Of a stretch of DNA of 64,000 nt, positions 7,119-50,676 are shown piece after piece. The notes beneath the pieces were generated by a model, which had not been told where the DNA came from, searched no databases, and saw only the letters and a program-made list of their open reading frames with translations. The DNA is from Rosenbergiella metrosideri. Its GTDB lineage: Bacteria > Pseudomonadota > Gammaproteobacteria > Enterobacterales > Enterobacteriaceae. The stretch's first letter is position 1, and each line of letters opens with the position of its first letter. A program made the translations under genes and the position numbers. The stretch is from positions 1-64,000 of the forward strand of contig NZ_JALBCV010000001.1 in NCBI RefSeq assembly GCF_022602565.1, in the 5' to 3' direction.

Positions 7119-7132
7119 TTTATCCACTCACT

Positions 7133-9537: not shown

Positions 9538-9546
9538 GGAGTTCCT

Positions 9547-10188: not shown

Positions 10189-10227
10189 GCCTAAGCGCCG
10201 GGTACTTTACTCGTCGTGGTAAGGGGG

Positions 10228-10258
10228 GCTTATTATTAGCGTAATAAGCACCTCTTCT
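10228..10258 (+). terminator. Probable terminator after cheZ
   Basis: GCTTATTA (10228-10235) and TAATAAGC (10242-10249) form a perfect 8-bp stem with a 6-base loop; the right side continues into a pyrimidine-rich run. The stem is AT-rich, so efficiency is uncertain. Confidence 0.5.
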
Positions 10259-10330
10259 CACCTCTACTTCTTCAATAGCCTGATGTGGGCTCTGGCACTC
10301 TACGCAGAGTGATCCAATGAGGAAACCGCG

Positions 10331-31062: not shown

Positions 31063-31074
31063 TAGGATAACGAG

Positions 31075-31102
31075 GGCCATGCAGTCTGTATGGCCTTTTT
31101 TT
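31075..31102 (+). terminator. mepM terminator
   Basis: GGCCAT (31075-31080) and ATGGCC (31090-31095) flank a 9-base loop and are followed by seven T, 13 bases after the mepM stop. Confidence 0.8.
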
Positions 31103-31203
31103 GGGGATGATGATGGGGCTTATCTCCCTGATCACTAGTAAAAGTCTATTGCAAAACTCTTCGCCATCACTATCATTAGCCACTTCTTCTAAGAGGCGAG
31201 TGC

Positions 31204-32178: not shown

Positions 32179-32182
32179 TGAA

Positions 32183-32202
32183 ACAGCCGCCTGCGCGGCT
32201 GT
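32183..32202. terminator. Shared terminator, lpxM and pykA
   Basis: ACAGCCGC and GCGGCTGT form a perfect 8-bp stem around CTGC between the two convergent stops; on the minus strand it is followed by TTTC. Confidence 0.6.
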
Positions 32203-32207
32203 ATCGA

Positions 32208-33650
32208 TTATTCGACGGTGATGACGCGCTGTGTATTGGTGGTACCAGTCGCACCCATCACATCTCCTTGTGTGACAATGACTAAATCACCGGTCTGCAG
32301 ATAGCCTCTAGACTTAAGCAGTTTGACTGCATCGTGGACCGCCAGTAAGCCATCGGTATATCCGGAAATCGCAACGGGAGTCACCCCACGATAGAGCGCC
32401 GTGCTATTAAGTGTAGCTTCATGGCGTGAGAGGGCAAAGATAGGGAGCCCTGACGTGATACGAGATGTCATTAACGCAGTACGACCTGACTCGGTCATGG
32501 TGATGATCGCCGTTACCCCCTTTAGGTGGTTGGCTGCATACATGGCAGACATCGCGATCGCCTCTTCGATATTATCAAATTGAATATCTAATCGGTGGCG
32601 AGAGACATTCACTTTCGGGATTTTTTCGGCCCCGACACAGACATTCGCCATCGCCTGTACAGTCTCTGCAGGATATTGGCCGGCAGCTGTTTCGGCAGAA
32701 AGCATGACGGCATCTGTGCCATCTAAAACGGCATTAGCAACGTCCATAACCTCTGCACGCGTAGGCATCGGGTTGGTGATCATTGACTCCATCATCTGGG
32801 TTGCCGTGATACTGGCCCGATTTAATTGACGCGCGCGGCTAATAAGATTCTTCTGAATACCCACTAATTCAGGGTCGCCAATCTCAACGCCAAGATCGCC
32901 TCGTGCGACCATAACAACATCACTGGCCAGAATGATATCGTCCATAGCCGCTTGTGTCGCTACGGCCTCTGCGCGTTCGACTTTCGCAACTATTTTCGCT
33001 CGGCAACCCGCTTCTTCGGCCAGACGTCGAGCATAGCGTAAGTCATCACCACAGCGCGGGAAAGAGACGGCGAGGTAATCCACCCCAATTTTGGCCGCCG
33101 TAATGATATCGGCTTTATCTTTTTCGGTTAGGGCTTCAGCAGAGAGACCACCTCCCTGTTTATTAATCCCTTTATTATTCGATAGAGGACCGCCGACCGT
33201 GACCTCAGTTAAGATATTATCCCCTTCAACTGCAGTGACGCGTAATTGTACGCGGCCATCGTCCAGTAACAGAATATCGCCAGCTTTAACATCCTGAGGG
33301 AGTGCCTTATAATCGATTCCAACTTGCTGATGGGTTCCTTCACCTTTGGGTAACGACGCGTTTAAGGTGAAAAGATCCCCGATATTCAGGAAGATCTTAC
33401 CTTCGCGGAAGGTGGAGATACGAATTTTAGGTCCTTGTAAATCACCGAGAATTGCGACATGACGGCCCAATTTCTTTGCAATCGCTCTGACATTATTGGC
33501 GCGTGTGAGGTGGTCATCAGCAGAACCGTGGGAGAAGTTGAGTCGCACGACGTTCGCCCCCGCTGCAATCACTTTTTCTAGGTTATTATCGCGGTCAGTG
33601 GCAGGGCCTAATGTGGTAACAATTTTTGTTCTTCTAAGGCGTGGTGACAT
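32208..33650 (-). CDS. pykA: Pyruvate kinase II
   Basis: Glycolytic enzyme of 480 residues, the E. coli PykA length. It opens [14 protein letters not shown] and has MNFSHGS-type (here [11 protein letters not shown]), GDLQGPKI, the catalytic lysine region [23 protein letters not shown] and [12 protein letters not shown] chose the ATG at 33650 because similarity begins there; 22 more codons are open upstream. It faces away from zwf. In E. coli hexR lies between these two genes; here there are only 281 bases and no gene. Confidence 0.97.
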
Positions 33651-33829
33651 GGACAACTCCAGTAAGATCATCAGTGAAGAGAAAAGCCAGTTGTTGAGAA
33701 TAGGTATTACACTCAATATCGCAGAAAACGATAAATGCTCGCAATGATTTTAGGGTACAACTTTAGGAACCAGTTTAACAACCAATTAACGTGTCAACGG
33801 TAGTCGACATTGATTTCACACAGCAAACT

Positions 33830-33850
33830 GTTTACCTCACTACTGTAAAC
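33830..33850. promoter_or_regulatory. Inverted repeat upstream of zwf, possible operator
   Basis: GTTTAC (33830-33835), nine bases, GTAAAC (33845-33850), about 80 bases before zwf in the pykA-zwf gap. It does not fit the HexR box I know. It may be an operator for another regulator or chance. Confidence 0.3.
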
Positions 33851-33931
33851 GCAGTAAAGTGGGCAATAATATGAATCTAATGAACTCCTTAGCGGGTTTT
33901 CGCTACTTTACGTTAGAACGAGGAAAATAAA

Positions 33932-35419
33932 ATGGCGTCAACGCAAACAGTCCAGGCTTGCGACCTGGTAATTTTTGGAGCCAAGGGTGATCTGGCACGC
34001 CGTAAGCTATTACCTTCGTTATACCAACTGGAAAAAGCCGGCCAAATCAATGATGAAACGAAAATCATTGGCGTGGGTCGTGCAGAGTGGGATAAAGCGA
34101 CCTACACGCAAGAAGTTAATAAAGCGCTTAAAACCTTTATGAAAGAGGAGATCGATCAAGCGATTTGGGAAAAACTAAGCGCACGCTTAGATTTTTGTAA
34201 CCTAGACGTCAATGAATCGGCGCATTTCACGAAGTTAGGTAAGCTGCTAGACCAAAAAAATCGCGTAACGGTTAACTATTTCGCGATGCCACCAAGCACC
34301 TTCGGCGCAATTTGTAAGGGCCTGGGCCATGCGAAATTGAATGCTAAACCTGCTCGAGTGGTGATGGAAAAACCGTTGGGCACGTCTTTAGAGACGTCTC
34401 AAGAGATTAACGATAGTGTGGGTGAGTACTTTGACGAAAGCCAAGTTTTCCGCATCGACCATTATCTGGGTAAAGAGACGGTTTTAAACCTTCTCGCATT
34501 GCGTTTCGCCAATTCTATCTTCGTGAACAACTGGGACAACAAAACCATTGATCACGTACAGATTACGGTTGCGGAAGAAGTGGGAATCGAAGGGCGTTGG
34601 GGCTACTTTGATCAAGCGGGTCAAATGCGCGATATGGTACAAAACCACTTGCTGCAAGTGTTGACGATGATCGCTATGTCACCGCCATCCGACCTTACCG
34701 CCGCCAGCATTCGCGACGAAAAAATTAAAGTATTACGTTCATTACGTAAAATTGACCGCACCAACGTGCGTGAGAAGACCGTGCGTGGTCAATATACTGC
34801 TGGCTTTGTGCAAGGTAAAAAAGTCCCAGGTTATTTGGATGAAGAAGGGGCTAACAAAGCTAGCTCGACAGAAACCTTCGTTGCTATCCGCGTAGATATC
34901 GATAACTGGCGCTGGGCGGGAGTTCCATTCTACTTGCGTACTGGTAAACGCCTACCTGCGAAATGTTCTGAAGTTGTTGTTTACTTTAAAAACCCAGAAA
35001 TGAATCTGTTTAAAGAGTCTTACACGCAACTTCCGCAGAACAAGCTGACGATTCGTTTACAACCGGATGAAGGGGTCGATATCGAGATCCTGAACAAGGT
35101 GCCAGGGTTAGACCATAAACATAAGTTGCATACGACTAAACTAGACCTAAGTTTCTCCGAAACGTTTAACGAAAGTCATTTAGCCGATGCCTATGAACGT
35201 TTGTTATTGGAATCTATGCGTGGGATCCAAGCCTTGTTTGTTCACCGTGACGAAGTTGAAGCCGCGTGGACATGGGTTGATTCAATCATTGACGCCTGGG
35301 AGAAGGATGGCGAGTCGGCCAAACCTTACCAAGCGGGTACTTGGGGACCCGTTGCCTCGGTTGCCATGATCACCCGTGATGGGCGTTCTTGGAACGAGTC
35401 TGAAACCCCATTAGAGTAA
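33932..35419 (+). CDS. zwf: Glucose-6-phosphate 1-dehydrogenase
   Basis: First enzyme of the oxidative pentose phosphate pathway, 495 residues. It has the NADP loop GAKGDLARRKLLPSLY, the catalytic RIDHYLGKE, PFYLRTGKR, and the substrate-binding LQPDEGVDIEILNKVPG. In E. coli edd and eda follow; here a terminator and convergent purT follow at once, so the Entner-Doudoroff genes are not at this locus. Confidence 0.98.
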   Translation: MASTQTVQACDLVIFGAKGDLARRKLLPSLYQLEKAGQINDETKIIGVGRAEWDKATYTQEVNKALKTFMKEEIDQAIWEKLSARLDFCNLDVNESAHFTKLGKLLDQKNRVTVNYFAMPPSTFGAICKGLGHAKLNAKPARVVMEKPLGTSLETSQEINDSVGEYFDESQVFRIDHYLGKETVLNLLALRFANSIFVNNWDNKTIDHVQITVAEEVGIEGRWGYFDQAGQMRDMVQNHLLQVLTMIAMSPPSDLTAASIRDEKIKVLRSLRKIDRTNVREKTVRGQYTAGFVQGKKVPGYLDEEGANKASSTETFVAIRVDIDNWRWAGVPFYLRTGKRLPAKCSEVVVYFKNPEMNLFKESYTQLPQNKLTIRLQPDEGVDIEILNKVPGLDHKHKLHTTKLDLSFSETFNESHLADAYERLLLESMRGIQALFVHRDEVEAAWTWVDSIIDAWEKDGESAKPYQAGTWGPVASVAMITRDGRSWNESETPLE

Positions 35420-35424
35420 TCGAT

Positions 35425-35453
35425 AACCGCCAGCTAGACTGGCGGTTTTTTTT
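35425..35453 (+). terminator. zwf terminator
   Basis: AACCGCCAG and CTGGCGGTT form a 9-bp stem around CTAGA, followed by eight T, 6 bases after the zwf stop. It abuts the purT stop. Confidence 0.88.
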
Positions 35454-36636
35454 AGCTAGCGTCAGAGACCTCAATGGATGCAGCGCTGGCTAAAGCGACT
35501 GAGACGGCCTTCTCGACGGTCTCCTCTATCGCCAAGGCCACACCTAACCGTCTACGTCCCGCAATACTTGGTTTAGCAAAGAGTCTGATTTGTTGACCCG
35601 CCGCCATCGCTTTTTCAAGTCCAGTAAAACTCACTGCTTCGCTGTGGAGTGTCGGTAAAATAACTGCGGAAGCCGAAGGCCCATATTGACGAATATGACC
35701 GATAGGTAATCCCAAGAAAGCACGGACATGCAGAGCAAACTCAGAGAGATCTTGGGAGATAAGCGTGACTAGGCCGGTGTCATGCGGACGAGGAGAGACT
35801 TCACTGAAGATGACGTCATCACCTCGCACGAATAGTTCGACACCAAATAGGCCAAAACCTGAGAGGGCGGTAACGACTTTTCTAGCGATCTCTTGTGCAC
35901 GGGCTAAGGCAATGTCGCTCATTTGTTGCGGCTGCCACGATTCGCGGTAATCTCCTTCTTCCTGCCGATGCCCGATAGGTGCGCAGAAATGAATGCCATC
36001 GACGGCACTGACAGTGAGGAGGGTAATTTCGAAATCGAATTCCACTAACCCTTCAACAATAACTCGGCCCGCACCCGCACGACCCCCTTGTTGAGCATAC
36101 TCCCAGGCAGCATCGCACTGATCGCGGTGGCGAAGTAGACTTTGACCTTTACCAGAAGAGCTCATTATGGGTTTGACGAAACAAGGGAATCCTATGGCCT
36201 CGACCGCCTGCAGGAATTCGTGTTGCTGGCTAGCAAAACGGTAGCGGGAGGTCGGCAGCGCCAATTGCTCTGCCGCTAATTGCCGAATACCTTCACGATT
36301 CATGGTGAGTTGAGTGGCCCGTGCGCAAGGCACCACGGTTACGCCTGTGGCTTCCAACTCTACCAGAGTCTCAGTCGCAATAGCCTCGATTTCCGGTACG
36401 ATAAAATCAGGCTGTTCCAGAGCGATCACCGATTTTAAAGCTTCGCCATTCAACATATCGATGACATAGGCGCGGTGGGCGACGTGCATCGCAGGGGCGT
36501 TTTCATAGCGATCTACGCCAATGACTTCAATACCTAACCGCTGGCATTCGATAGCGACTTCTTTCCCCAACTCCCCACAACCCAATAACATCACTTTGGT
36601 TGCATTTTCACGTAACGCGGTGCCGAACTTTCGCAT
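35452..36636 (-). CDS. purT: Formate-dependent GAR transformylase PurT
   Basis: PurT makes formyl-GAR from GAR, formate and ATP in purine synthesis. It is an ATP-grasp enzyme: [57 protein letters not shown] and [12 protein letters not shown] are all present. The ATG at 36636 with GGGAAAG upstream gives 394 residues (E. coli 392). A PurR box lies 42 bases upstream. Confidence 0.96.
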
Positions 36637-36677
36637 AACACTTTCCCAAGCTAAAAAATAATCGCCAATAAGTTTAA

Positions 36678-36693
36678 ACGAAAACGTTTGCGT
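36678..36693. promoter_or_regulatory. PurR operator upstream of purT
   Basis: ACGAAAACGTTTGCGT differs by one base from the PurR palindrome ACGCAAACGTTTGCGT. It lies just upstream of purT on the promoter side, so purine repression of purT is expected. Confidence 0.8.
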
Positions 36694-36786
36694 TAGCACG
36701 TCCAGCGATAAACACTGTAAAACAGGTAAGGCCTAAAGAAACATGCGATAATAAGGATATCACTCTCTCAATCGGTAGCTAACACC

Positions 36787-38850
36787 ATGATGACTCCTCC
36801 TCAAGCCCGACGAATCCCATTCTTTCACCGAATGCACGGTGAAAAACGCGAAGATAATTTTGCCTGGCTGCGCGATGATGAGCGCGCGGATCCCGACGTT
36901 ATTGACTATCTGGTGGCTGAAAATCAGTGGTGCGAGCAACAACTGGCCCCGCTCGCCGACCTTGAAGCGACGCTCTATGAGGAGATGACCGCGAGAATTC
37001 CCGGCAATGATCATTCGGTTCCTTTTTTGAAATCGGGGCATTGGTACCAACAGCGCTACCAGCAGGGGGATGACTATCCTCATTGGGTATGGCGCAACGA
37101 TACTGAAAGCGCATCCTGGCAAACCTTATTGGATTGTAATGAACGCGCTCGTCACGCTGAGTATTACGAGTTGGGTGCATTAGAAATCACGGCCGATCAT
37201 CAATATATGGCGGTGACGGAAGATTATCTGTCACGACGGGAATATGTGTTACGAATTCAACGATTGACCGACCAAACCTGGCTAGACACAGTGATCGAAG
37301 GAATTTCCCCTTCGATTGTTTGGGCCAACGATGGCCAGACGCTATTTTATATCAAGCAGGATCCCCAGACCTTGTTACCTTGGCAGGTTTGGCGTCATAG
37401 ATTAGGCACTGATCCGGCAGCGGATTGTTTAGTTTATGAAGAACAAGATGATAGCTATTACGTAAGCTTAACTGGGAGCAGCTCTGAACAACGACTTTTC
37501 ATTGTGTTAGAGAGTTCGACGACGAGCGAGGCATGGGTTATCGATGCGGACAAGCCACACTTAGCCCCGCGTTGCATTATCCCTAGACGTGAAAACCATG
37601 AATACAGTATCGATCACTTCCAAGGGCATTATTATCTTCGCTCAAATCGAGAAGGGCTTAACTTTGGGCTGTATCGTTGTGTTGATACTGAAGCGACTGA
37701 GGATGGCTGGCAGCAAGTTATTGCTGTATCTGAAGAGCGTATTATTGAAGATTTCCAACTCTTTAACGACTGGCTCGTTACGGAAGAACGCCTGCAGGGT
37801 AGAGTGGTTCTCTGCCAATATACGCTTACGGGAGGGCAGCGATTGCTATTACCGAAGCAGGCCGAAAATGGCGTGGTATGGATTGGGCATAACCCTGATG
37901 CTAACAGTACAGGCTTACGTTTTGGTTATAGCAGCCTGACCACGCCGACGACAACCTATGAATGGGATCTTAACACTCATCGCTTAACGCTGTTAAAGCA
38001 AGTCCATATTCCGCTTTATGAGGAGAGCGATTATGAAAGCGATTGGCGGTGGTTAACCATGCGTGATGGCGTTCAGGTACCAGTATCCCTCGTTTGGCGT
38101 AAGGACAGTCTACAATCCGGTCAGAATCCACTGCTGGTCTATGGCTATGGCGCATACGGGGCGGCGCTAGAGGCTGACTTTAGCTTCACGCGTCAAAGCT
38201 TACTCGATCGAGGATTTATTTATGCCATGGTGCATGTGCGCGGCGGAGGGGAGCTTGGCCGCGCATGGTACGACGCCGGACGGCTTGGCAATAAAATGAA
38301 TAGTTTTTACGATTTTATTGACGCGACAGAGCAACTGTTGGCACAAGGCATTGGCGATCCGCAACGCTGTTATGCTATGGGTGGAAGTGCGGGGGGACTA
38401 TTAGTGGCGGCGGTAAGTAACATCGCGCCGACCTTGTTCCACGGTATTCTTGCGCAGGTTCCCTTTGTCGATGTGGTCAGCACCATGTTAGACGAAAGCA
38501 TCCCTCTGACTACCGGTGAGTATGAAGAATGGGGCAATCCTAATAGCGAGGCAGACTATATGACCATTAAAGCCTACAGCCCGTACGATAATGTCCGTAG
38601 ACAAGATTACCCTCACCTTTTCGTGACGACAGGCTTACATGATTCACAAGTTCAGTATTGGGAGCCTGCGAAGTGGGTGGCTAAGCTTAGAGAACTGAAA
38701 ACCGATGATCATCAATTGCTACTGTACACCGATCTTGATGCAGGACATGGTGGGAAATCCGGGCGCTATCAAGCCTATGTTGATATCGCTCGGGAGTGCA
38801 GTTTCTTGGTCGGCTTATCCAGCGGAATATGGCCTAACTCTTCAGTTTAG
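36787..38850 (+). CDS. ptrB: Oligopeptidase B (protease II)
   Basis: Prolyl-oligopeptidase-family serine peptidase (S9A) cutting after Arg/Lys in short peptides; cytoplasmic. The 687-residue protein has an N-terminal beta-propeller and a C-terminal hydrolase with [25 protein letters not shown], the nucleophile in [11 protein letters not shown], and the final PEH-like [10 protein letters not shown] and [10 protein letters not shown] catalytic regions. It is divergent from purT, and its last 17 bases overlap holE on the other strand. Confidence 0.95.
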
Positions 38851-39067
38851 GTTCATAGGGTAATCGTGACAACGTCACAGAAAGCTGGCGATAGGTCGTC
38901 AGTTTTTCTTGAAAGTGCGCACGTAAGGACTCGGGTTGCTCGTTTTCGATATGAATTGGTATCACTGGCATATTGTAACGCTCTTTAAAGGCGACCCCAG
39001 CGGCGGCTAACTCGGTATTCAGTTGATCTTTCGCTTCTGCACTCAGTACAGCGAGATTGTATGTCAT
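38834..39067 (-). CDS. holE: DNA polymerase III theta subunit
   Basis: Small core subunit that stabilises the epsilon proofreading exonuclease. The 77-residue product has the signature [18 protein letters not shown] and the end [13 protein letters not shown] chose the ATG at 39067, which is preceded by GAGGAGGAA, over an upstream frame extension of 19 codons. It is convergent with ptrB. Confidence 0.93.
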
Positions 39068-39200
39068 GGTGAAGTGTTCCTCCTCGGCAGGTAAGCGTTT
39101 AAAACTGATGCTTTCTTCTGCCACTTGAATGCGTCATTTGCTACACTGTGCGTTAAGTCACATGGCGGTTTTATTATTACGAATTTAAGGCACTATTCCA

Positions 39201-39542
39201 ATGAAAAAACTCTTATCCGTACTTTTACTTACTCTGATTAGTAGTCAATCCTTTGCTTCTGAAGTGATTACGGTGAGTCGACGCGAAATCGGTAAGCAAC
39301 AGTGGCCGCTCACCCGAGAAGAGATTATGTTACGTTGCGATAAGGATGGTGGCCTCTTTGCTATTAATGACAGTACGCTTATGCAATACCCGCTGAATGC
39401 CATTGCACAACAAAATGTTGATCAGAGAAAAAGCCAAGGTCAGCCTATTACATTGATTCAGGCCGATGATCCTCAACAGCCAGGCAAAAAAATGGACCTC
39501 TCACCGTTAACGTCTCGCGCTCAAGCTTTGTGTGGGCAGTAA
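39201..39542 (+). CDS. yebY: YebY family periplasmic protein (DUF2511)
   Basis: 113-residue protein with a cleavable signal peptide (about 1-19, ending SFAS). The mature part matches YebY: VITVSRREIGKQQWPLTREEIML, QYPLNAIAQ and DDPQQPGKKMDLSPL, with two cysteines. In E. coli it is the last gene of yobA-yebZ-yebY, thought to handle copper. Here yobA (CopC-like) and yebZ (CopD-like) are absent and holE is the direct neighbour. Confidence 0.88.
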   Translation: MKKLLSVLLLTLISSQSFASEVITVSRREIGKQQWPLTREEIMLRCDKDGGLFAINDSTLMQYPLNAIAQQNVDQRKSQGQPITLIQADDPQQPGKKMDLSPLTSRAQALCGQ

Positions 39543-39588
39543 TTATTCAACGACTTAACCGTTAAGCGTAGTAACACTGATTCAATTG

Positions 39589-39618
39589 AAAGGGGGTCGA
39601 TTAAGGCCCTCTTTTCTT
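39589..39618 (+). terminator. Probable yebY terminator
   Basis: AAAGGGGG (39589-39596) can pair with CCCTCTTT across a 10-base loop with one mismatch; TTTTCTTT follows. Confidence 0.5.
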
Positions 39619-39742
39619 TCCTATAACGTTGATCTTGCGCAAACCATTGCGAGTTACTCCTCTCGTCTTAACGTCCAACCCCTTAGAATTAGTAGTCAGC
39701 TAGCACACTTTTCTTATGCTCGCTCTATACAAGGGGATCGGT

Positions 39743-40288
39743 ATGCATTCTAAAATCAATTGTAAGGTGATTATTTGGGCGACTCTGTTAGCAGGATTTA
39801 TGAGTTCGTTGGTTAAATGGGGATCAGAAGTCAATATGCCTCCGCGCGTTGCAGGTGAAATATCCCCACCCGGTGCCCATATTGATGCCTGGCTAGGGTG
39901 GGCAGGGATAAATCAGCATTCGCTTGACTACCTTTATCAGGGAAATTCTGTTTTGGGGGCGGTAACGCTCTACCATTGGTTATTTAGCTTTGTCTTTGCT
40001 TTTGTCTATGTTGCGGGTGCCTATTACTGGCCGAAGATCCGTATGGGCTATGGCGTAGTCTATGGTGTAGTGATCACGGTGGTGATGCATGGCTTTCTTA
40101 TCCCAGCGTTGGGATTTCGTCAGCCAATTTATGATGAGGGCAAAACGGGGTGGTTATGGAACCTTAATGGTTATGAGCTGTGGAGTGAAATTATTGGGCA
40201 TATCTGTTGGTCAATGAGCATTGAGTTTAGCCTGATTGCCGTATTAGCACTCTGCGCTCAGCCCATCAAAGGGACGTGGCGTCGATAA
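39743..40288 (+). CDS. YagU family inner membrane protein (DUF1440)
   Basis: About 181 residues with four likely membrane segments (about 5-24, 70-95, 104-125, 150-170). The opening SSLVKWGSEVNMPPR and the GHICWSMSIE end match YagU, an inner-membrane protein linked to acid resistance in E. coli; the central part is more divergent. I chose the ATG at 39743 (AAGGGG upstream) over an ATG-less extension of nine codons. It is convergent with the unknown gene at 40336-40809. Confidence 0.82.
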   Translation: MHSKINCKVIIWATLLAGFMSSLVKWGSEVNMPPRVAGEISPPGAHIDAWLGWAGINQHSLDYLYQGNSVLGAVTLYHWLFSFVFAFVYVAGAYYWPKIRMGYGVVYGVVITVVMHGFLIPALGFRQPIYDEGKTGWLWNLNGYELWSEIIGHICWSMSIEFSLIAVLALCAQPIKGTWRR

Positions 40289-40294
40289 CACAAG

Positions 40295-40327
40295 TCGACA
40301 CCGAATCGTAATAGGGTTCGGTGTCGA
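40295..40327. terminator. Hairpin between convergent genes
   Basis: TCGACACCGAA and TTCGGTGTCGA form a perfect 11-bp stem with an 11-base loop between two convergent stops. No strong T run follows on either side. Confidence 0.55.
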
Positions 40328-40335
40328 AAGCAGCT

Positions 40336-40809
40336 TTAGGGCTTAATCGGTGTGGACGCCACTGGCGGCGTGCTCTCTTCGAGTTTTTCACCGTTTTTCT
40401 CTTTCTCTTTTATCTCTTTTTTCACCCACGCACGGTCTTCTTCTGTCAGTTCTGAGGCATGTGTATTACTACTGCTTAATAACCAATAGAGCATCGCCAG
40501 TTGTGTCAGTCTTACACCACTGTTGCCCCGAGTGTTAATCGCATTTTTAAGCCGTTGCGATGGCGCCTGTTGGCTAAGGGAACGGTACTGTTCTGCTCCA
40601 GGAATACCTTTTTTACCTGAGGCGGCAGCATTCTGTTGCGCCGTCGGCGCGGCTGTGGCGGTAGGAGGAGTCTTTTGCTGCACTGGGCGTTTAAACATCT
40701 TCGACGACCCAAAGCCCCTTGATGAGAACGAACGCGCGTCGCTAAAGGTGGAGACGGTCATTAGTAGAGCAGGCAACAAGATGAGTAGGGGGCGGGCAAT
40801 TTTTTTCAT
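40336..40809 (-). CDS. Hypothetical exported protein
   Basis: 157 residues with a clear signal peptide (about 1-25, cleavage near SDARS). The mature part starts with Ser/Gly/Phe-rich sequence (SFSSRGFGSSKMFKRP), a Gln/Ala/Pro/Thr-rich linker (about 43-65), a hydrophobic stretch (LTQLAMLYWLLSSS, about 100-113), and a charged Lys/Glu-rich tail. I do not recognise the family. The ATG touches the stop of the short upstream frame 40809-40982 (TAATG), suggesting coupled translation. There is no counterpart at this place in E. coli. Confidence 0.7.
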   Translation of the reverse strand: MKKIARPLLILLPALLMTVSTFSDARSFSSRGFGSSKMFKRPVQQKTPPTATAAPTAQQNAAASGKKGIPGAEQYRSLSQQAPSQRLKNAINTRGNSGVRLTQLAMLYWLLSSSNTHASELTEEDRAWVKKEIKEKEKNGEKLEESTPPVASTPIKP

Positions 40810-40982
40810 TATAGTTCCCAGAAGATAAAAAGAGTCAATAAGGGCAGTAGTGGACCCTGTAAGATGAGGACTGGGAGATTATACCAAGATAGTGCTGAAC
40901 GGTTGCGGGTACCAATGTAAAGATTCACAATTATCCTCAAGGCCTGGTGGGTAAGTTGACGTAACTTTGAATTTATTGACAT
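40809..40982 (-). CDS. Possible small membrane protein
   Basis: 57 codons from the ATG at 40982, with GAGGTGG-type purine-rich sequence upstream. The N-terminal half is basic and polar; the C-terminal half is hydrophobic (LPVLILQGPLLPLLTLFIF), like a single membrane segment. Its TAA shares a base with the ATG of the exported-protein gene downstream. Unrecognised; supported only by the coupling, the ribosome binding site and the membrane-like tail. Confidence 0.38.
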   Translation of the reverse strand: MSINSKLRQLTHQALRIIVNLYIGTRNRSALSWYNLPVLILQGPLLPLLTLFIFWEL

Positions 40983-41054
40983 TATCCACCACCTCATATT
41001 CGAGCTATGGTAAGCCTTAGGTTTAGCTATACCTGTAAATGATATAAGCGGCTT

Positions 41055-41365
41055 GATAGAGAGGGTGTTAAGTGAGTCTACGATAGAAGCAAGGTTGATT
41101 TGGAGACCTTACATACTCACTTGAATCATATGCTCGCAAACTGGAACCTAAAAAATTATAACCACAATGATTGGTTTTATGGAACGGGTCAACTTCCTAA
41201 ATGGTTGGGGTATTCCCTAGGTTCAGATTGATTCCTTTGTATCTACGCTCAGCAACATCAGCAACATCAGCAACATCAGCAACATCAGCAACATCAGCAA
41301 AGCCGTCCTCGCTTGTAGCTATGCATCCCGATGCGTTTATTACTTATTTGAAAGATGGAGGTTAG
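41055..41365 (+). pseudogene. Remnant of DUF2268-type (YjaZ-like) gene
   Basis: The frame beginning near 41055 reads RLDREGVK, TGA (41073-41075), then about 50 residues ending DWFYGTGQLPKWLGYSLG, then TGA (41229-41231). Shifting frame just before that stop gives LIPLYL, a Ser-Ala-Thr repeat, and SSLVAMHPDAFITYLKDGG with a stop at 41363-41365. The WFYG-LPKW-GYSLG pattern followed by a -YL- helix resembles the C-terminal end of DUF2268 putative zinc peptidases. The HExxH half is not recognisable upstream. The stop, the frameshift and the missing N-terminus show it is dead. Confidence 0.5.
41250..41300 (+). repeat. Tandem 9-bp repeat, CAGCAACAT x 5.7
   Basis: Five identical copies of CAGCAACAT (41250-41294) plus CAGCAA. 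It lies inside the gene remnant and would encode Ser-Ala-Thr or Gln-Gln-His repeats depending on frame. Because the unit is a multiple of three, copy change keeps frame. Confidence 0.95.
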
Positions 41366-41800
41366 TTGAATGGTATATGAGCCTTGCTTATAAACGTATA
41401 TAGTTAAATTTAACAGCCAAAGATTTTATGACCTCGCTAAATCTCTATATTAGTGATGATTTTCTTAAACTGCCTGAAACTGCGAGTGCTTTCAATTGAG
41501 TAGATTGCATATCTCGTTATCCGCGTAATACAGTTACTTCAGCTTAACTTTTTTATGTGCAAATGAAAAATAATCAAAGTATTAGTGTTCTCCATTTATG
41601 CGCACCACCTCAATACTGTCGAGGTGATATTTAGGAGCTTAGGATCAAAGTACTTTGGGGGCCCTTGATATTAATGCTGACCCTTTCACTGATTAGCGTT
41701 TGATTTCATAAGATCGATAACAAACGCCAGTGACGTAATCAGAGTTGACTATTTTTTATTAATACATGCGTAACCGACATTCCCCACCTATTGGCCACAC
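41366..41800. other. AT-rich gap without a recognisable gene
   Basis: About 435 bases between the gene remnant and rsmF. No open frame of useful length on either strand, no strong terminator, and no RNA gene I recognise. Probably decaying sequence plus whatever lies downstream of rsmF. Confidence 0.6.
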
Positions 41801-43237
41801 TTACTTAAATAATGGTCCATTACGAACCAGCTCCCTAGGCAAGCTATTTTTAATTCGCTGATTAATTATTTTTGCCAGTCCTAACACCTGTTGCTGATAA
41901 CTGATTAAACATTCTCCTTTAGGCAAGGGTGTCTCCGGATAAATATCTCGACCTCGATACCATTCAGCGGCTTGCTCGGCTGTCAGTTCGACCGTGGTGG
42001 TGGTGGCGTTAGCGAGGGCGGTTATCGCTTCATGATGCCAGCGATATCCCTTGTTGTGTATATCTGCTAATCGGAAACCAAGGCGTGAGAATTTAACCTT
42101 ACCCATTAGCGGTTCGAGCGTTTTTGGGAATAGCCAGAGTTCTTTATCCCTTTGCCAGAGACTGAGCGAACTCTCCCATTTGATACCGATAGAGGCAGCT
42201 TGCTCAATGATAAGGTGTTGCGTTTTAGTTGGCAGCGGTTGGAAGGGAAGCTTACCCACCTTAAAACCTGGATGAGGAAGGGGATCTAAGCTACGCGTTT
42301 TACGCAGGCTAGCCACGAAAAATCCTTCACTATCAAAACGTTGTGGGAAAACATGAAGATAGCCTTCTGGCGTCGCCACGCGTTCTGCGCCTGGGAAGAG
42401 TGAGGCTAACGATTCGATCTCAACCGCATCTGGAAAAGTAGAGGAAAGTGACGCAATGACTTGCTGATTTTCAATGGTGTTAAGTGTGCAGGTGGAGTAG
42501 ATCAATCGACCACCGGGTTTCAGTGCATGAAAAGCGCTCACTAAGAGTTCACGCTGAGTTTGCGCAATCTCTTCTGTGCTTTCGAGGCTCCAATGAGTGA
42601 AAGCGTGAGGATCTTTACGGATCACACCTTCACCTGAGCAAGGGGCATCTAACAATATTGCATCGAACTGTTCCGGCAAGGAGGCACCAAACACACGCGC
42701 ATCAAAATGGGTCAGCGCTGTATTGACCACGCCACAGCGGCTGATATTGGCGTGTAAGACTTTAACTCGACTTGCCGCATACTCGTTAGCAACAATCAGA
42801 CCCTGATTAGCCATTTTTGCAGCGATTTGCGTCGTTTTAGAGCCCGGTGCTGAGGCCATATCCATCACTCTACACGGCATCTCTTGCGCAGCAAATAGGG
42901 CCTGCACGGGCAACATCGAACTGGGTTCTTGAATGTAGAATAGACCACTTAGATGTTCTGCGTAGCTTCCTAAGGGGATTTGCTCATCGTTAACCTGAAC
43001 CCAAAAACCTTCCTCGCACCAAGGCACCGGTGTGAGTTGCCAAGGATAGTCGGCAGTTAATTCTAGGAATTCTGCGACACTGATCTTTAAAGTATTGACC
43101 CGAATAGCGCGTCGAAGAGGGCGTTGACTGATCGCGATAAAATCTGCGAAATCATCTTCGTTGGGTAGCGCCTGACGCATGAGTTCGAGAAATTGGGCGG
43201 GAAAATCGATAGCTTCAGTACTCACAATGGGTTCCAT
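41801..43237 (-). CDS. rsmF: 16S rRNA m5C1407 methyltransferase RsmF
   Basis: Methylates C1407 of 16S rRNA with SAM. The 478-residue protein (E. coli 479) has [20 protein letters not shown] at the N-terminus, the NOL1/NOP2/Sun core with [18 protein letters not shown], the catalytic cysteines in [14 protein letters not shown] and [11 protein letters not shown], and a C-terminal PUA-like domain ([18 protein letters not shown]). A hairpin separates it from letB upstream. Confidence 0.95.
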
Positions 43238-43263
43238 GGCGGCAAAAGCTTAGTCTAGCATGA

Positions 43264-43288
43264 ACACGGGCAGGAATTCTGCCCGTGT
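43264..43288 (-). terminator. Hairpin after letB
   Basis: ACACGGGCAG and CTGCCCGTGT form a perfect 10-bp stem around GAATT, just after the letB stop on the minus strand. The T run is short. Confidence 0.6.
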
Positions 43289-43296
43289 AGTAGCGA

Positions 43297-45936
43297 TTAT
43301 TCTTGGCGAGGAATAGCAGTTCCCCACTTTTGCCAACCGTCTGGCGCTTCATCGCGTAATAGGAAGTGTTTATTCGATTCCGCTTCAGGGGCTAGAGGGA
43401 CAGTTGGTGGTGTCGCGAATTGAATACCTCCACGAATAAATTGTTGGAAGGTTCCGGTTTTAACCACACCACCGGTTAGGCCAAAATCGAGCGAGTAGCC
43501 AGAGGCCAACCAAAATACGGAGTTATTACGTACCAGGTGCTGATAACGTGTACTGATGCGCATCGCTATCTGTACCCGATCGGCTAAGTTCCCCAGAGAG
43601 GTGCCGGTGACGGTACCGACCTCAACACCACGGTACAGTACCGGTGTACCGACGGTAAGGGTTCCCGCATCTGGCGCATCGACATAGACGTTCAAACCAT
43701 CTAAGTAGCGTGAATCGGTAATTGTATCCTCTTGCAGCTCGAAACTGCGGCGTATGCTGCCTGTACCCGGGTCGACATTAACATAAGGCTGCAACAGTGA
43801 TTCTAAGTGGTTGACACCGTTAGATGATATTTCCGGTGAGACCACAGAAAATTGACTACCACTGCGGGCGAAATGTTGATCATATTCAGGGTAGAGCACT
43901 GCTTTCGCCTCAACTTGGTGTAAGTTCTGGCTGAGTGACAGGCTCTCAACTTGGCCAACATTAATGCCTAGATATTTGATGGGCATCCCTGCAGCCAATT
44001 TACTGCCATCGAAAGTATGGAAAGTAATTTGACTGCCGACTGCGTTCGCCGCATTACGGCTGGCAAAAAGCTCCCGATATTTACCTTTCTGCTTCGTGAC
44101 CCCTGATAAGCTATCGAAGCTGATTGCACCTTTTAAAGCACGATTCAATGGAGTGGCCTGTACGGTGATACCGTTAGAATTAAACTGAACTCGCGCGCCC
44201 CCTTCGGCCCAGAACACGCTCGAATTGGTGATCAGTTTCCGGTATTCCGGTACGATATGCACAGACACAATAAAATTGTCTGCATTCGGGGTAATATCGA
44301 CAATTTCACCGACTTGGTAACGGCGATAAAGTACTACGCTACCCGCTTGAATATCCGGTAAGCTTGTGGCGATAAGTTTCAACGTCACCGAGGGTTTATC
44401 TCCCTGAGTGTTGTCTTTTGCCGCATCGTCGTCAGCATAGAGAGGATAACGTGCGCTCGGTTGACCTTTCTTTCCGGTATTCACTCGGATACCGCCTTGA
44501 ATCCATTGTTGTGGGGGGGCACCCACCATCTTCAAGCCATCGAGGCCCATGCGAATTCGAATCTGACTGTCGGCGATAAACTGGCTATCGGCATGAATAA
44601 AATGACGATATTGCGGTTCAACCGAGACTTGGAACGCCACGCCGTGGTCCGTCAGAGTGCGTTGTGCAATTTTACCAATCGGCACCCCATTAAGAATGAG
44701 GGGTTGACCTGCATCGATGCCGTAGCTATCTGGTGCGGTCAATTGAAGCGTTAGGCTATTGGGAACCTGTAACAGTGATTGGCTGGCAGGTAACACGGTA
44801 AATTCGGTTGCCGCTTCACCTTCACCTGGAATTAATTGTAAAACAGTACCCGCCAGCAATGAACCGACAGAGAGGTTTCCACTTTGTAAACTAGGCTGAC
44901 GCATCTCAATACGTGTCCCCGTCCGCATTAAACCTACCACGCTCGGATCGACCGTCAGCTCACCGGTGACATGTTGTTGGTCGGTAAGATTGAGGTGAGT
45001 CAGCGTTCCGACTTGCAGGCCTTGATACATTAAAGCCGTTGAACCTGCGGTGAGGTTGTCAGCACTGGGTAACTTTAAGGTAAAATTAACCCCTCGCTGA
45101 CTTTCGGCAAGATTAGGATAGAGTTCATAACGCTGTTGATTGCGTGCTGCCTCTGAGTCTTGAGGCGAGTCAAAGGCAATGGCGCCATTAATCAGCGCTG
45201 GAACGCTAGTGAGATTAACATTTACACCTGATGCCCCTAATTTCGCCTGAAGTCCTGAAACGTTCCAAAACCGGCTATTTTTCTTTACCAGTTGCGTGTA
45301 ACGTCTTTCAATCAGTACGTCAATGAGAACGCCTTTGCCTTGTGGGGCAAAACTGTAATCATAAACACGGCCTACAGGGACTTTTTGATAATAGACTTGA
45401 GAACCGGTGTTGAGTGAACCTAAATCATTCGCGTGTAGTTGGATGATCAGACCACCGTTATTGACGATATTTTTCGGCTGACTATCAGACGCAGTAAAAT
45501 TGTCAGTTGAGGCGCCATCTCCTGGCATCATACCGATATAGTTACCGCCGACCAAAGCATCTAACCCTGACACACCCGCCAACGATGCCTGAGGGGTGAC
45601 TAGCCAAAATTTCGTGTTCGCGCGTAGTGCATCCTTCATACTACTTTTGATACTGGCTTTAATTTTTATGACGCGATAGTTATCGGTCAGAACGATATCC
45701 TGCACAGTACCAATTTCTACGCCTTGATAGCGAATAGGCGTGCGGCCAGGTACAATACCGTCTGCCGTATGGAAGTTAATGGTGATTGTCGTTCCACTTT
45801 CTTGATAATTTTTCCAAAGAAGCCACCCAGTGATCAGGATAGCCACGATGGGGAGAAACCAAAAAGGGGAAAGACGGCGCTTTTTCATAACCGTGGCGCT
45901 AATCGGTGTATTCGGCGTTTCCTGTTGCATGGGCAT
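43297..45936 (-). CDS. letB: Envelope lipid-transport MCE protein LetB (YebT)
   Basis: LetB forms a seven-ring tube across the periplasm for lipid movement. The 879-residue protein (E. coli 877) has an N-terminal membrane anchor (about 24-42) and repeated MCE domains, each opening with a DG--PG-P--Y-G-E-G pattern, e.g. ADGIVPGRTPIRYQGVEIGTV, and YFRKIPVGKVYD-like YYQKVPVGRVYD. Start could be this ATG or the one 6 bases later. It overlaps letA by 38 bases, so the pair is coupled. Confidence 0.95.
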   Translation of the reverse strand: MPMQQETPNTPISATVMKKRRLSPFWFLPIVAILITGWLLWKNYQESGTTITINFHTADGIVPGRTPIRYQGVEIGTVQDIVLTDNYRVIKIKASIKSSMKDALRANTKFWLVTPQASLAGVSGLDALVGGNYIGMMPGDGASTDNFTASDSQPKNIVNNGGLIIQLHANDLGSLNTGSQVYYQKVPVGRVYDYSFAPQGKGVLIDVLIERRYTQLVKKNSRFWNVSGLQAKLGASGVNVNLTSVPALINGAIAFDSPQDSEAARNQQRYELYPNLAESQRGVNFTLKLPSADNLTAGSTALMYQGLQVGTLTHLNLTDQQHVTGELTVDPSVVGLMRTGTRIEMRQPSLQSGNLSVGSLLAGTVLQLIPGEGEAATEFTVLPASQSLLQVPNSLTLQLTAPDSYGIDAGQPLILNGVPIGKIAQRTLTDHGVAFQVSVEPQYRHFIHADSQFIADSQIRIRMGLDGLKMVGAPPQQWIQGGIRVNTGKKGQPSARYPLYADDDAAKDNTQGDKPSVTLKLIATSLPDIQAGSVVLYRRYQVGEIVDITPNADNFIVSVHIVPEYRKLITNSSVFWAEGGARVQFNSNGITVQATPLNRALKGAISFDSLSGVTKQKGKYRELFASRNAANAVGSQITFHTFDGSKLAAGMPIKYLGINVGQVESLSLSQNLHQVEAKAVLYPEYDQHFARSGSQFSVVSPEISSNGVNHLESLLQPYVNVDPGTGSIRRSFELQEDTITDSRYLDGLNVYVDAPDAGTLTVGTPVLYRGVEVGTVTGTSLGNLADRVQIAMRISTRYQHLVRNNSVFWLASGYSLDFGLTGGVVKTGTFQQFIRGGIQFATPPTVPLAPEAESNKHFLLRDEAPDGWQKWGTAIPRQE

Positions 45937-47143
45937 CCCAGAGTAAGCGGCTATCGAGCCATTCTACGGATAGAATGGTAAGAAAAACAGCGGAACCAAA
46001 ATAAAGCGCAGCTGGTCCCATAGTAAAAGCAAGCAGTTGATCTCGATCCACGAGTGACATCATCAACGAAATAACGAACAGATCGAGCATCGACCATCTT
46101 CCAATCCATCTTACTGCCCTTAGCAATCGCACCCGAGTTTTAAGGCCTTGTTCACAGCGCATAGCAATGCTGATTAATAGTGCGAGCAAAATAATCACTT
46201 TACTAATTGGCACCAAGATACTCGCCGTAAAGACCACCATTGCCACAGGGATATTGCCACTGGCGAGCGAGAAGATTCCAGAGAAAATCGTATCGTCTTG
46301 ACGGGCACCATTTATATAGATGATTGAAATAGGTAATAGATTGGCTGGGAAAAGAAAAATAATCGAACTGATTAACGCTGCCCAAGCTTTCTGTAAGCTA
46401 TAAGGGATGCGCGGTGCCCATTTGACATGGCATCGCGGACAGCGCCCGCGATCATCATTTTGGCCACTATAATGACAATAGATACAGCACTTAACGTCTT
46501 CAGGCCGTAAGGCTTGACGTGGCTGAGGGTAAAATTTGTGCCACAGACTTTCGACATCAAGATGGATAATTAATAAAAGGTAGAACAGGGTAAGGCTGAT
46601 AAAAGCGACTAAGCCATAGCCAGCAAAGAGATCTGCGTAATCCTTAACCTTGATCGCGGCCACGATAACCCCGATCAAGTAGATATCGAACATAATCCAC
46701 TCTTTAAGCTTATCTAACACCAACAGGACTGGGCGTAGGTTCATCCCCAAATGTTTACCTACCGCCAGGTAAATGAAACTGAGCGCTAGCACCAGAGGGG
46801 TACCAATGACACAAAAACAGACCATTGCTGCGGTGAGAATATCGCCCTGATTGACCATCTGCATGATCCCCGCCAGCATACTGGCACTGATAGTCATGCC
46901 GAGTAGACGAATTTCAATAAGGGGGAGGGTCCAAGCAAGCGGCATTAGACAGAGCATTAGACAGGCCAAGCAACATAGTCGAGAAAAAGACCAATCTTTG
47001 CCCGTCGCAACTTTTACTCGGCATCGCGGGCAGTAGGCAACATCACCTCCCTTTAAAATGGGGCGGTGATATATATGGTCACACTCTCCACAACGTTTGA
47101 GGTCAGTGAAGGTTTCAGGAGAACTGATAGCGGTAATTTTCAT
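45899..47143 (-). CDS. letA: Envelope lipid-transport membrane protein LetA (YebS)
   Basis: Inner-membrane partner of LetB, PqiA family, 414 residues (E. coli 427). It has two halves, each beginning with a zinc-ribbon-like cysteine cluster (CGECDHIY with CPRC; CCIYCHYSGQ with CPRCHVKW) and followed by four hydrophobic segments. The 3' end overlaps letB by 38 bases. Confidence 0.94.
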   Translation of the reverse strand: MKITAISSPETFTDLKRCGECDHIYHRPILKGGDVAYCPRCRVKVATGKDWSFSRLCCLACLMLCLMPLAWTLPLIEIRLLGMTISASMLAGIMQMVNQGDILTAAMVCFCVIGTPLVLALSFIYLAVGKHLGMNLRPVLLVLDKLKEWIMFDIYLIGVIVAAIKVKDYADLFAGYGLVAFISLTLFYLLLIIHLDVESLWHKFYPQPRQALRPEDVKCCIYCHYSGQNDDRGRCPRCHVKWAPRIPYSLQKAWAALISSIIFLFPANLLPISIIYINGARQDDTIFSGIFSLASGNIPVAMVVFTASILVPISKVIILLALLISIAMRCEQGLKTRVRLLRAVRWIGRWSMLDLFVISLMMSLVDRDQLLAFTMGPAALYFGSAVFLTILSVEWLDSRLLWDAHATGNAEYTD

Positions 47144-47344
47144 CGCGCGTTATCGGTAATTATCGTTACAAAGCATAAAATTTTCATTGTTAGGTAATTA
47201 GGTCTGCTATAGTCGTTGAAAACGTAATGTATCAGAAGTTCCCTGAGTAAGAATATAAGCATAGTTGAGCGCTAGGCGATGTCTATTTCTTTTACTTGTT
47301 CATGGTTCCTTCGCGATTCATCAATGACACTGTATGGTTGGAAA

Positions 47345-47860
47345 ATGAGTAAGTCAGAATTTTATCAAGATATGTCCCGAGATCTTGGCGCCCTGAACAG
47401 CGGTGAGCGAGCCTTTTTGCCTATTCTTGCGAATTGCAGCGCATTAATGTTCGAAAGAATGCCAGGGCTAAATTGGGTGGGTTTTTACCTGCTCAGTGAG
47501 CAAGACACCTTAGTGCTTGGCCCGTTTCAAGGTAAATTAGCTTGCGTTCGTATCCCAGTAGGGAAAGGCGTATGTGGCACAGCTGTGGCGACCGGTGACG
47601 TGCAACGAGTCGCTGATGTTCATCAATTTAGTGGCCATATCGCCTGCGATTCCGCCAGTAATAGTGAAATTGTTTTACCGCTGCGTTGTCATGGGGAAAT
47701 TATCGGTGTGTTAGATATCGATAGTCCGCATTTTTCGCATTTTGATCATGAAGATGAAGCGGGTGTTCAATCTGTAGTGAATACACTTGAGACCCTACTC
47801 TCAGCCACAGAAATTTCTCTTTTTTTACAACAATTAAAAGGTAATTTCGCTGAGGCATAG
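47345..47860 (+). CDS. msrC: Free methionine-(R)-sulfoxide reductase MsrC
   Basis: GAF-domain enzyme (fRMsr) that reduces free Met-R-sulfoxide. About 171 residues from the ATG at 47345 (MSKSEFYQDM), where similarity begins; 22 upstream codons are open. The core NWVGFYLL, LGPFQGKLACVRIPVGKGVCGTAVA and the catalytic cysteine region HIACDSASNSEIVLPL are intact. Divergent from letA, as in E. coli. Confidence 0.93.
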   Translation: MSKSEFYQDMSRDLGALNSGERAFLPILANCSALMFERMPGLNWVGFYLLSEQDTLVLGPFQGKLACVRIPVGKGVCGTAVATGDVQRVADVHQFSGHIACDSASNSEIVLPLRCHGEIIGVLDIDSPHFSHFDHEDEAGVQSVVNTLETLLSATEISLFLQQLKGNFAEA

Positions 47861-47939
47861 CAATTAGCGCTGTAGTCATTATAATGACGCTTGTTCATGC
47901 CTGCGTTGGTCGGCAAAACCGTTGTAATCAGGAAATTTC

Positions 47940-48611
47940 ATGGAAAATCAACCTAAGTTGAGTAGTAGTAAAGAAGTCATTGCATACCTTTCACAGCAAT
48001 TTCCAAGCTGTTTTATTGCAGAAGGTGAAGCAAAGCCGTTAAAAATCGGTATTTTTCAGGATTTAGTCGAACGTATTCCGGCTGAAATGAATTTGAGTAA
48101 AACTCAGCTTCGCTCAGCGTTGCGTGTCTACACCTCGAGCTGGCGTTACCTTTACGGGATCAAAGCTGGCGCGACCCGTGTTGATCTTGATGGTAATGCA
48201 TGTGGAACGCTGGAAGAGCAACACGTTGAGCACGCACGTCAGCAACTGGAAGAAGCGAAAGCGCGCGTTGCGGCACACCGTGCAAAACAACGCAGTGAAG
48301 CTAAAGCTGATGACGCAGGTAAAGCTGAACGCCGCCCACGCAAACCTACAGCCCGTAAACCTGCTGCACAGAATGCGTCCGCAACGGACAATAAATCTCG
48401 CAAGCCTAAGAGCGATTCGCGCCAATCATCCCCTGCTGAGGGTAAACCAGTGACTGATATTTCGGTCCTGAAAGTGGGTCAACCGATTCGCGTGAAAGCA
48501 GGTCTGAGTGCCGTCGACGCTACTGTTCTTGAAATCTCTAAAGAGGGAGTTCGGGTCCAATTAGCGTCAGGACTGGCAATGATTGTACGCCCAGAACATT
48601 TGCAGTTCTGA
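47940..48611 (+). CDS. proQ: RNA chaperone ProQ
   Basis: FinO-domain RNA-binding protein of 223 residues. The N-terminal FinO/ProQ domain (about 1-120) has [22 protein letters not shown] and [17 protein letters not shown]; a basic Lys/Arg/Pro/Ala-rich linker (about 120-170) follows; the C-terminal Tudor-like domain ends [10 protein letters not shown]. It lies 19 bases upstream of prc, as in E. coli where ProQ binds many sRNAs and 3' UTRs. Confidence 0.96.
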
Positions 48612-48630
48612 AACGGAGAGTGACCCAGGC

Positions 48631-50676
48631 ATGAACACCAGTTTTAAAGTAAGTTTACTTGTCGCCACTCTGTTTATGGGTAAGGCGTTTGCTGCTGATC
48701 CAATCACACGTGAAGATCAGATCCCACAATTACAAGAGCAACCGCAACAAGTTACGGTAAGTCAGCGTGTCACGGCACGCTTTACTCAGTCGCATTATCG
48801 GCAAATCACGTTGGATGCTGCGTTTTCAAATAAAATTTTTGACCGTTATCTGAATATGATCGATTACAGTCATAATATTTTGCTGAGTAGCGATATTGCA
48901 CAATTTGCTGACAAAAAGTCGCAAGTAGGCCAAGAACTGGAGTCTGGGAATCTCGACACGTTTTATCAGCTATTTAACTTGTCCCAGCATCGTCGCTTTG
49001 AACGTTTACAATATGCGCTGAGCGCATTAGCTAAACCAATGAATTTCACCTCTCATGAATCGATTGATTTGGACCGGAGCAAAGCGCCATGGCCAACCTC
49101 GACCGAGGAGCTGAATAAATTGTGGGACGCGAAAGTGACCTACGACGAGCTCACCTTAAAGCTCGCAGGGAAGAATGAACAAGAGATCCGCGATACGTTA
49201 ACACGACGCTATAATGCGGCGTTGCGTCGCGTATCACAGACGACTAGCGAAGATGTTTTCCAAACGGCTATGAATGCGTTTGCGCATGAGATCGATCCCC
49301 ATACTAATTATCTTTCACCGCGTAACACTGAACAGTTTAATACCGAAATGAGCTTATCCTTAGAAGGGATTGGGGCGGTATTACAGATGGATGATGATTA
49401 CGCGATGATTAACTCGATGGTTGCAGGCGGCCCAGCGGCGCGGAGCAAGGCATTGAGCATCGGTGATAAAATTATCGGTGTCGGCCAAGTCGATCAACCG
49501 ATTGAAGATGTCGTGGGTTGGCGTCTCGATGATATCGTCGAAAAAATTAAAGGGCCTAAAGGAAGTAAAGTTCGTTTAGAGATCCAGCCTGCAACGAAAG
49601 GCAGCAAAACGCGTATTATCACACTGACGCGTGAACGAATTCGTTTAGAGGACCGTGCCGTACAGGGTTCTGTTCATCAAGTCGGTAAGAACAAAGTTGG
49701 CGTACTGGACATTCCCGGTTTCTACGTCGGCCTTACTGATGATGTTAAAGTACAGTTGCAAAAATTGCAGAAACAACACGTCGACAGCATTGTCATTGAC
49801 TTACGGACTAACGGTGGCGGAGCATTAACTGAAGCGGTATCCCTCTCAGGCCTCTTTATCCCCTCAGGTCCAGTTGTTCAAGTTCGTGATAATACTGGGA
49901 ATATTCATCAAGACAGCGATGATGATGGGGTGGTTTATTACAATGGTCCATTAGTGGTGCTGGTGGATAGATTCAGTGCCTCGGCCTCTGAAATATTCTC
50001 TGCTGCGATGCAAGACTACGGTAGAGCCTTGATTGTCGGCGAGCCGACTTTCGGCAAAGGAACGGTTCAACAATACCGTTCATTGAATCGTATTTATGAC
50101 CAAATGCTGCGTCCAGATTGGCCTGCATTAGGCTCGGTTCAATACACCATTCAGAAATTCTACCGCATCAATGGCGGCAGTACACAGCGTAAAGGTGTCA
50201 CGCCGGATATTCTGATGCCGACAGGAGTTGAGGCGATTAAAACGGGCGAGAAATACGAAGATAACGCTCTGCCTTGGGATAGCATTAAAGCAGCGAGTTA
50301 CTCGCCGATGGCAGACTTACAGCCTTACGTCGCCCAGCTACGTCAAGAGCACGATGCGCGTATTGCCAAAGACCGTGAGTTCCAATATATCATCAAAGAT
50401 ATTCAACGTTTCGATGCGATGAAAGACAAGATTAATATTGTTTCGCTGAATTTGGCGGAACGTCAAAAAGAGAGCAAAGAAGAGGATGCTCTGCGTTTAG
50501 AGCGTATCAACGCGCGTTTCCAAGCAGAAGGGAAAAAACCTCTTGCTTCGTTAGACGCACTGCCGAAAGACTATAAAGAGCCTGACCCTTATCTTGATGA
50601 GAGTGTCGCGATTGCTAACGATCTTGCCAGCGCGGAGAGTAAAAACCCGCCTGCTTCAATGGCGACTGAGAAGTAA
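48631..50676 (+). CDS. prc: Tail-specific protease Prc
   Basis: Periplasmic C-terminal processing protease (S41), partner of NlpI. From the ATG at 48631 it is 681 residues (E. coli 682) with a signal peptide (cleavage near AFAADP), a PDZ domain (SLEGIGAVLQMDDDYAMINS, VAGGPAARSK), and the Ser/Lys catalytic dyad in DRFSASASEIF and GEPTFGKGTVQQ. It processes FtsI and controls MepS/MepM levels in E. coli. A terminator follows. Confidence 0.96.
   Translation: MNTSFKVSLLVATLFMGKAFAADPITREDQIPQLQEQPQQVTVSQRVTARFTQSHYRQITLDAAFSNKIFDRYLNMIDYSHNILLSSDIAQFADKKSQVGQELESGNLDTFYQLFNLSQHRRFERLQYALSALAKPMNFTSHESIDLDRSKAPWPTSTEELNKLWDAKVTYDELTLKLAGKNEQEIRDTLTRRYNAALRRVSQTTSEDVFQTAMNAFAHEIDPHTNYLSPRNTEQFNTEMSLSLEGIGAVLQMDDDYAMINSMVAGGPAARSKALSIGDKIIGVGQVDQPIEDVVGWRLDDIVEKIKGPKGSKVRLEIQPATKGSKTRIITLTRERIRLEDRAVQGSVHQVGKNKVGVLDIPGFYVGLTDDVKVQLQKLQKQHVDSIVIDLRTNGGGALTEAVSLSGLFIPSGPVVQVRDNTGNIHQDSDDDGVVYYNGPLVVLVDRFSASASEIFSAAMQDYGRALIVGEPTFGKGTVQQYRSLNRIYDQMLRPDWPALGSVQYTIQKFYRINGGSTQRKGVTPDILMPTGVEAIKTGEKYEDNALPWDSIKAASYSPMADLQPYVAQLRQEHDARIAKDREFQYIIKDIQRFDAMKDKINIVSLNLAERQKESKEEDALRLERINARFQAEGKKPLASLDALPKDYKEPDPYLDESVAIANDLASAESKNPPASMATEK

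Follow-up and report, generated by a model that had tools for sequence, protein, structure and literature searches.

A probable DUF2268 pseudogene carrying a perfect 9-bp repeat array in Rosenbergiella metrosideri

Introduction

Is a short open reading frame that contains a perfect 9-bp repeat a gene in its own right, or is it debris of an older gene in which a repeat has grown? The question is raised by a locus in Rosenbergiella metrosideri, a member of a genus known mostly from flower nectar. The DNA analysed here, which we call the window, is a stretch of 64,000 nucleotides that forms part of a 491-kb contig in a 3.34-Mb draft genome. In-gene minisatellites (VNTRs) of bacteria can form by slippage. 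An initial annotation, made from the sequence alone, had read window positions 41055–41365 as a decayed DUF2268-like gene with two in-frame TGAs, a frameshift and a 9-bp tandem repeat in its last coding part. Judged by title and the opening of the abstract, none of the matches listed by literature searches on DUF2268, on Rosenbergiella and on slippage in pseudogenes concerns the present locus. We are close to certain that the feature is a pseudogene of the DUF2268 family (PF10026, predicted Zn-dependent protease) that carries a slippage-type minisatellite and reflects ordinary decay.

Results

The remnant belongs to the DUF2268 family

The PF10026 profile matches the first piece of the remnant (window positions 41085–41228) with 29.4 bits against a curated cut-off of 23.6 (E 6.8e-7, Pfam), covering profile positions 119–167, which bears out the family assignment; the peptide pattern DWFYGTGQLPKWLGYSLG noted in the initial annotation is also present. 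A search of the window's whole genome with the same profile returned a single match, at 41088–41222 and above the cut-off, with matches also obtained in two of the 14 control genomes. Other Pfam families were rejected because they fell below their cut-offs, namely DUF6630 for the first window piece (E 0.081) and DUF5700 for the intact R. epipactidis protein (E 0.013). At E ≤ 0.01 NCBIfam offered no model for either the intact protein or the first window piece. A profile of four sequences found no PDB chain at E ≤ 1, and an Rfam scan of 39000–43000 at gathering thresholds found no RNA element.

An intact copy of the gene, encoding 217 residues, is found at the same place and between the same neighbours in R. 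epipactidis 2.1A, where the flanking DNA is ~95% identical to that of the window (one genome of each species was compared). The remnant spans 41094–41380 and corresponds to the last two-fifths of this gene. Its first piece is 87% identical at the amino acid level to the R. epipactidis protein over residues 134–179, and the piece past the frameshift, which alone gave no Pfam match, is 81% identical over residues 185–216 with one TAG inside; residues 1–133 have no match in the window's genome (all by tblastn). The features of the locus are as follows, with L014rc denoting R. epipactidis coordinates and G002 a second Rosenbergiella species.

40944–41093, + strand: upstream leader of the insert described below, common to R. 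epipactidis as far as the deletion junction
41093–41094, no strand: deletion junction relative to R. epipactidis, ~650 bp lost (L014rc ~6512 to 7162)
41094–41222, + strand: DUF2268 remnant, codons 135–177 of 217, containing NHNDWFYGTGQLPKWLGYSLG (PF10026, tblastn, codon comparison)
41219–41224, + strand: loss of a single base that shifts the frame; R. epipactidis and G002, both in frame, have one base more
41225–41380, + strand: DUF2268 remnant past the frameshift, codons 179–217 and the old stop (tblastn, codon comparison)
41249–41300, + strand: perfect 9-bp array of 5.8 TCAGCAACA units that read Ser-Ala-Thr in the frame of the old gene, 36 bp longer than in R. epipactidis
41363–41365, + strand: premature TAG, where R. 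epipactidis has TGG
41410–41449, + strand: glyoxalase-family gene remnant, from near the gene start (95% over 40 bp, L014rc 7528–7567)
41451–41510, − strand: N-terminal remnant of an FMN-reductase-family gene (MQSTQLKALAVSGSLRKSSL); the R. epipactidis pieces match PF03358

The initial annotation named the right gene, and the elements that it describes are all present; its limits need moving at both ends. Homology begins at 41094, so that 41055–41093 is non-coding retained leader, the end of a 3,095-bp block that is 95% identical to R. epipactidis and stops at 41093. At the other end the old stop codon lies at 41378–41380; the listed open reading frame ends at 41365 because of the premature TAG. 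Of the two TGAs, that at 41073–41075 is upstream of the homologous stretch and that at 41229–41231 is past the frameshift.

The start codon and the zinc site have been lost

The R. epipactidis protein carries HELHH at residues 90–94 and a downstream glutamate at residue 114. An HExxH motif followed 24 residues on by a glutamate, in an open reading frame of more than 150 residues, is found at 21 of 21 loci (R. epipactidis, 17 other genome loci and three plasmid loci, the frames having been picked by these motifs), and the corresponding alignment columns agree in all 21; the G002 and window remnants were outside this alignment. Measured against R. epipactidis, the ~650-bp deletion in the window runs from 248 bp before the start codon through codon 134, and it took away the start codon together with the zinc site HELHH...E. 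As homology in the window starts at codon 135, past the HExxH and the glutamate, both motifs are absent from the remnant. When the window is read against both R. epipactidis sides, the junction has at most 1 bp of microhomology. Near it, two differing codons read QL in R. epipactidis and ET in the window, indicating that the lost allele differed from the R. epipactidis allele. The frameshift is one missing base after codon 177, in a short T run.

Constraint on what is left appears relaxed. Over ~80 codons the remnant differs from R. epipactidis at 11 nonsynonymous (one of them to stop) and four synonymous sites, against 57 nonsynonymous and 268 synonymous differences in five intact neighbours (Fisher p = 7e-6). 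The sites are few and the count is rough, codons with several differences having been scored whole; codon 178, where the frameshift falls, and the array from its third codon onwards were excluded. If the pair of clustered codons beside the junction is dropped along with the repeat and stop codons, the ratio becomes 4:4 and p = 0.04. An intact orthologue in a relative and disabling lesions are therefore joined by relaxed constraint, the last being weaker without the clustered sites. The remnant resembles the intact R. epipactidis gene in place, neighbours and amino acid identity, but the latter is unbroken, has no 9-bp array and adjoins an open glyoxalase-family gene. Likewise, the above-cut-off profile match places the remnant with DUF2268, but it has no HExxH...E half, no start codon and no open frame. 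The remnant is best described as a fossil of a member rather than a working one, and nothing found indicates that it still makes a working protein.

The gene lies in a low-GC insert

The DUF2268 gene sits in a low-GC insert that is absent at the same site in all three other genomes of the genus that were compared (G001, G002 and G003), where the ends of the flank alignments are ~85, ~102 and ~50 bp apart, respectively. The insert is ~2.5 kb long in R. epipactidis and ~0.86 kb in the window, its left border being uncertain, as the flank alignments end at 40933 (G002), 40943 (G001) and 40981 (G003). Its GC content is 37% in R. epipactidis against 48–50% in the flanks, and that of the window's insert remnant is 38% against 48% for the whole window. 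The R. epipactidis insert also carries an open 142-residue glyoxalase-family frame (PF00903), for which eight NCBIfam models (bleomycin-binding, lactoylglutathione lyase and fosfomycin-type) all scored far below cut-off, and an FMN-reductase-family gene (L014 5452–6003) split by one in-frame stop, the N-terminal piece of which lies below the PF03358 cut-off and the other above it. This stop implies that the insert is decaying in both species. What the window keeps amounts to ~40 aligned bp of the glyoxalase-family gene and roughly 20 initial codons of the FMN-reductase-family gene.

The insert was probably gained by transfer, which the patchy distribution of DUF2268 fits: the family occurs in five of 39 relatives and 18 of 392 genomes of the bacterial family (both counts include the genome of the window), and in 149 of 72,556 plasmid records, all at <60% identity. 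In a protein tree R. epipactidis and the G002 fragment form a pair (99/99), but support for the fork that connects them with the other sequences is weak (23/25). Of the 19 inner branches five carry a star, and G002 has residues in 42% of the alignment columns; with these limits the tree does not name a donor. A phage origin found no support: the phage collection contained no DNA similar to 40900–41800, and 43 pattern matches in viral contigs included none that encodes a relative. A query of 30000–50000 gave near matches in 5,371 of 5,426 E. coli genomes, none covering 80% of the query; as the five E. coli rows listed are pyk or proQ, these matches are uninformative on the remnant.

In G040, from another genus of the bacterial family, a glyoxalase-family gene also adjoins a DUF2268 gene (L032 959–1369 and 1537–2115). 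It is 60% identical to the R. epipactidis one, and the two genes are convergent rather than in the same direction. This is the only such match besides R. epipactidis among a set of 21 loci, most of which are only ~3.5 kb long, and the three annotated plasmid regions showed no glyoxalase neighbour.

A second truncated copy is found in G002

G002 carries, at another locus (L015 7762–8073), a DUF2268 copy that likewise lacks its 5' half; it is flanked by a universal-stress-type gene on one side and an export-type operon on the other (labels by eye). Homology starts near residue 114, and what follows forms an open 94-residue frame that matches PF10026 with E 1.9e-12. Since both the breakpoints (codon 135 in the window, about codon 114 in G002) and the loci differ, the two truncations are most simply taken as separate events.

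Beside the G002 remnant are two similar Gly/Ala-rich frames of 140 and 132 residues (L015 8753–9175 and 12928–13326), both with MKTLTV in translation, and between them, at 9231–12600, a peptidase/ABC-transporter-like and a secretion-adaptor-like frame (labels by eye). The cluster looks like a bacteriocin (microcin) export locus; one of its small frames gave no Pfam match.

The array grew in the window lineage

Tandem Repeats Finder (TRF) reports one array at 41249–41300, with period 9, 5.8 copies and 100% matches; its score of 104 tops the 17 rows for the window. No other perfect period-9 run of at least 18 bp occurs in the 64 kb, and the 52 bp observed compare with a longest run of 20 bp when the window was simulated 200 times with an order-1 Markov model. 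An exact search of the genome with a two-unit pattern gave four overlapping matches, all at the array, and its reversed control gave none.

At the array site R. epipactidis reads TCA GAA ACA TCA TCA AAG and G002 reads TCA GAA ACA ACG TCG AAG, while the window reads (TCA GCA ACA)x5 TCA GCA AAG. R. epipactidis therefore has about one imperfect copy of the motif against 5.8 perfect ones, an expansion of exactly 36 bp, or four extra TCAGCAACA units, and these perfect head-to-tail units are absent from the orthologue. Comparison with the R. epipactidis and G002 copies shows on sequence grounds that the array grew in the window lineage, in agreement with the repeat expansion first suggested for the locus, and its perfection is that of what is probably a young minisatellite. 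It shares with bacterial in-gene VNTRs a perfect, short-period structure and a unit that is a multiple of three, but differs from them in sitting in a pseudogene and in being known here from one genome of the species. Because a 9-bp unit is neutral to the frame, the expansion does not tell us whether the gene was already dead.

Alternative readings of the locus

The remnant might instead encode a new small protein, with the 54-codon frame at 41201–41365 translated and its (Ser-Ala-Thr) repeat possibly tunable by repeat number. That frame is indeed uninterrupted and the entire array lies in frame within it, but its ATG is out of frame with the old gene and lies inside a conserved KWLGY stretch, and it enters the old frame only through the 1-bp deletion. 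No ribosome-binding-site-like sequence is seen by eye upstream, the piece has no Pfam match, and the excess of nonsynonymous changes speaks against a new small protein, which we consider very unlikely. A similarly slim chance attaches to the idea that the C-terminal part of DUF2268 may have a use of its own without the catalytic half, the Ser-Ala-Thr array having arisen as a side effect of new selection acting in the window species. It draws on the retention, in two Rosenbergiella species, of no more than the C-terminal two-fifths to half, and a pair of cases is too small a basis for claiming such a use.

Two further readings are even harder to credit. A perfect tandem array within a former coding region could suggest a phase-variable switch of that gene, but a 9-bp unit cannot shift the frame, which together with the 5' deletion refutes a frame switch; the gene in the window is already without its start and active-site half, and neither the R. 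epipactidis nor the G002 copy has an array, so that this reading has next to no probability. Hardly any weight falls either on the reading that the gene is live and that its frameshift and repeat are errors of sequencing or assembly. The 1-bp loss does fall in a short T run and the genome is a draft of 164 contigs, yet there are further, separate lesions, namely the ~650-bp deletion, the TAG and two neighbouring genes that are mostly gone, and an array of only 52 bp would lie below the length of ordinary short reads.

Discussion

Ordinary decay of a DUF2268 gene, the reading we prefer, suggests the following history. An insert with the DUF2268, glyoxalase-family and FMN-reductase-family genes would have been gained between the genes at 40336–40809 and 41801–43237, in the common ancestor of the window species and R. 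epipactidis, as its absence at this site from the other genomes of the genus suggests. In the window lineage, as comparison with the relatives shows, the ~650-bp deletion removed 248 bp of upstream DNA, and probably the promoter with it, along with the start codon and the catalytic half; the loss of one base put the remaining sequence out of frame, and a TGG near the end became TAG.

The array may have begun with two substitutions (GAA to GCA and TCA to GCA) that turned TCAGAAACA-TCATCAAAG into TCAGCAACA-TCAGCAAAG and so would have raised the match of the neighbouring 9-bp units from 5/9 to 7/9. Replication slippage, to which the form of the array points, or unequal exchange would then have added four units, the sequence bearing no signature that tells the two apart. 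Other paths may be drawn, for example one substitution with duplications and a small deletion.

For annotators the locus is a warning that the 54-codon open frame is probably no gene. For the repeat itself, the array lies in sequence with little or no remaining constraint, and the case shows how a minisatellite can start, with two point changes that make neighbouring 9-bp units more alike, followed by four more units.
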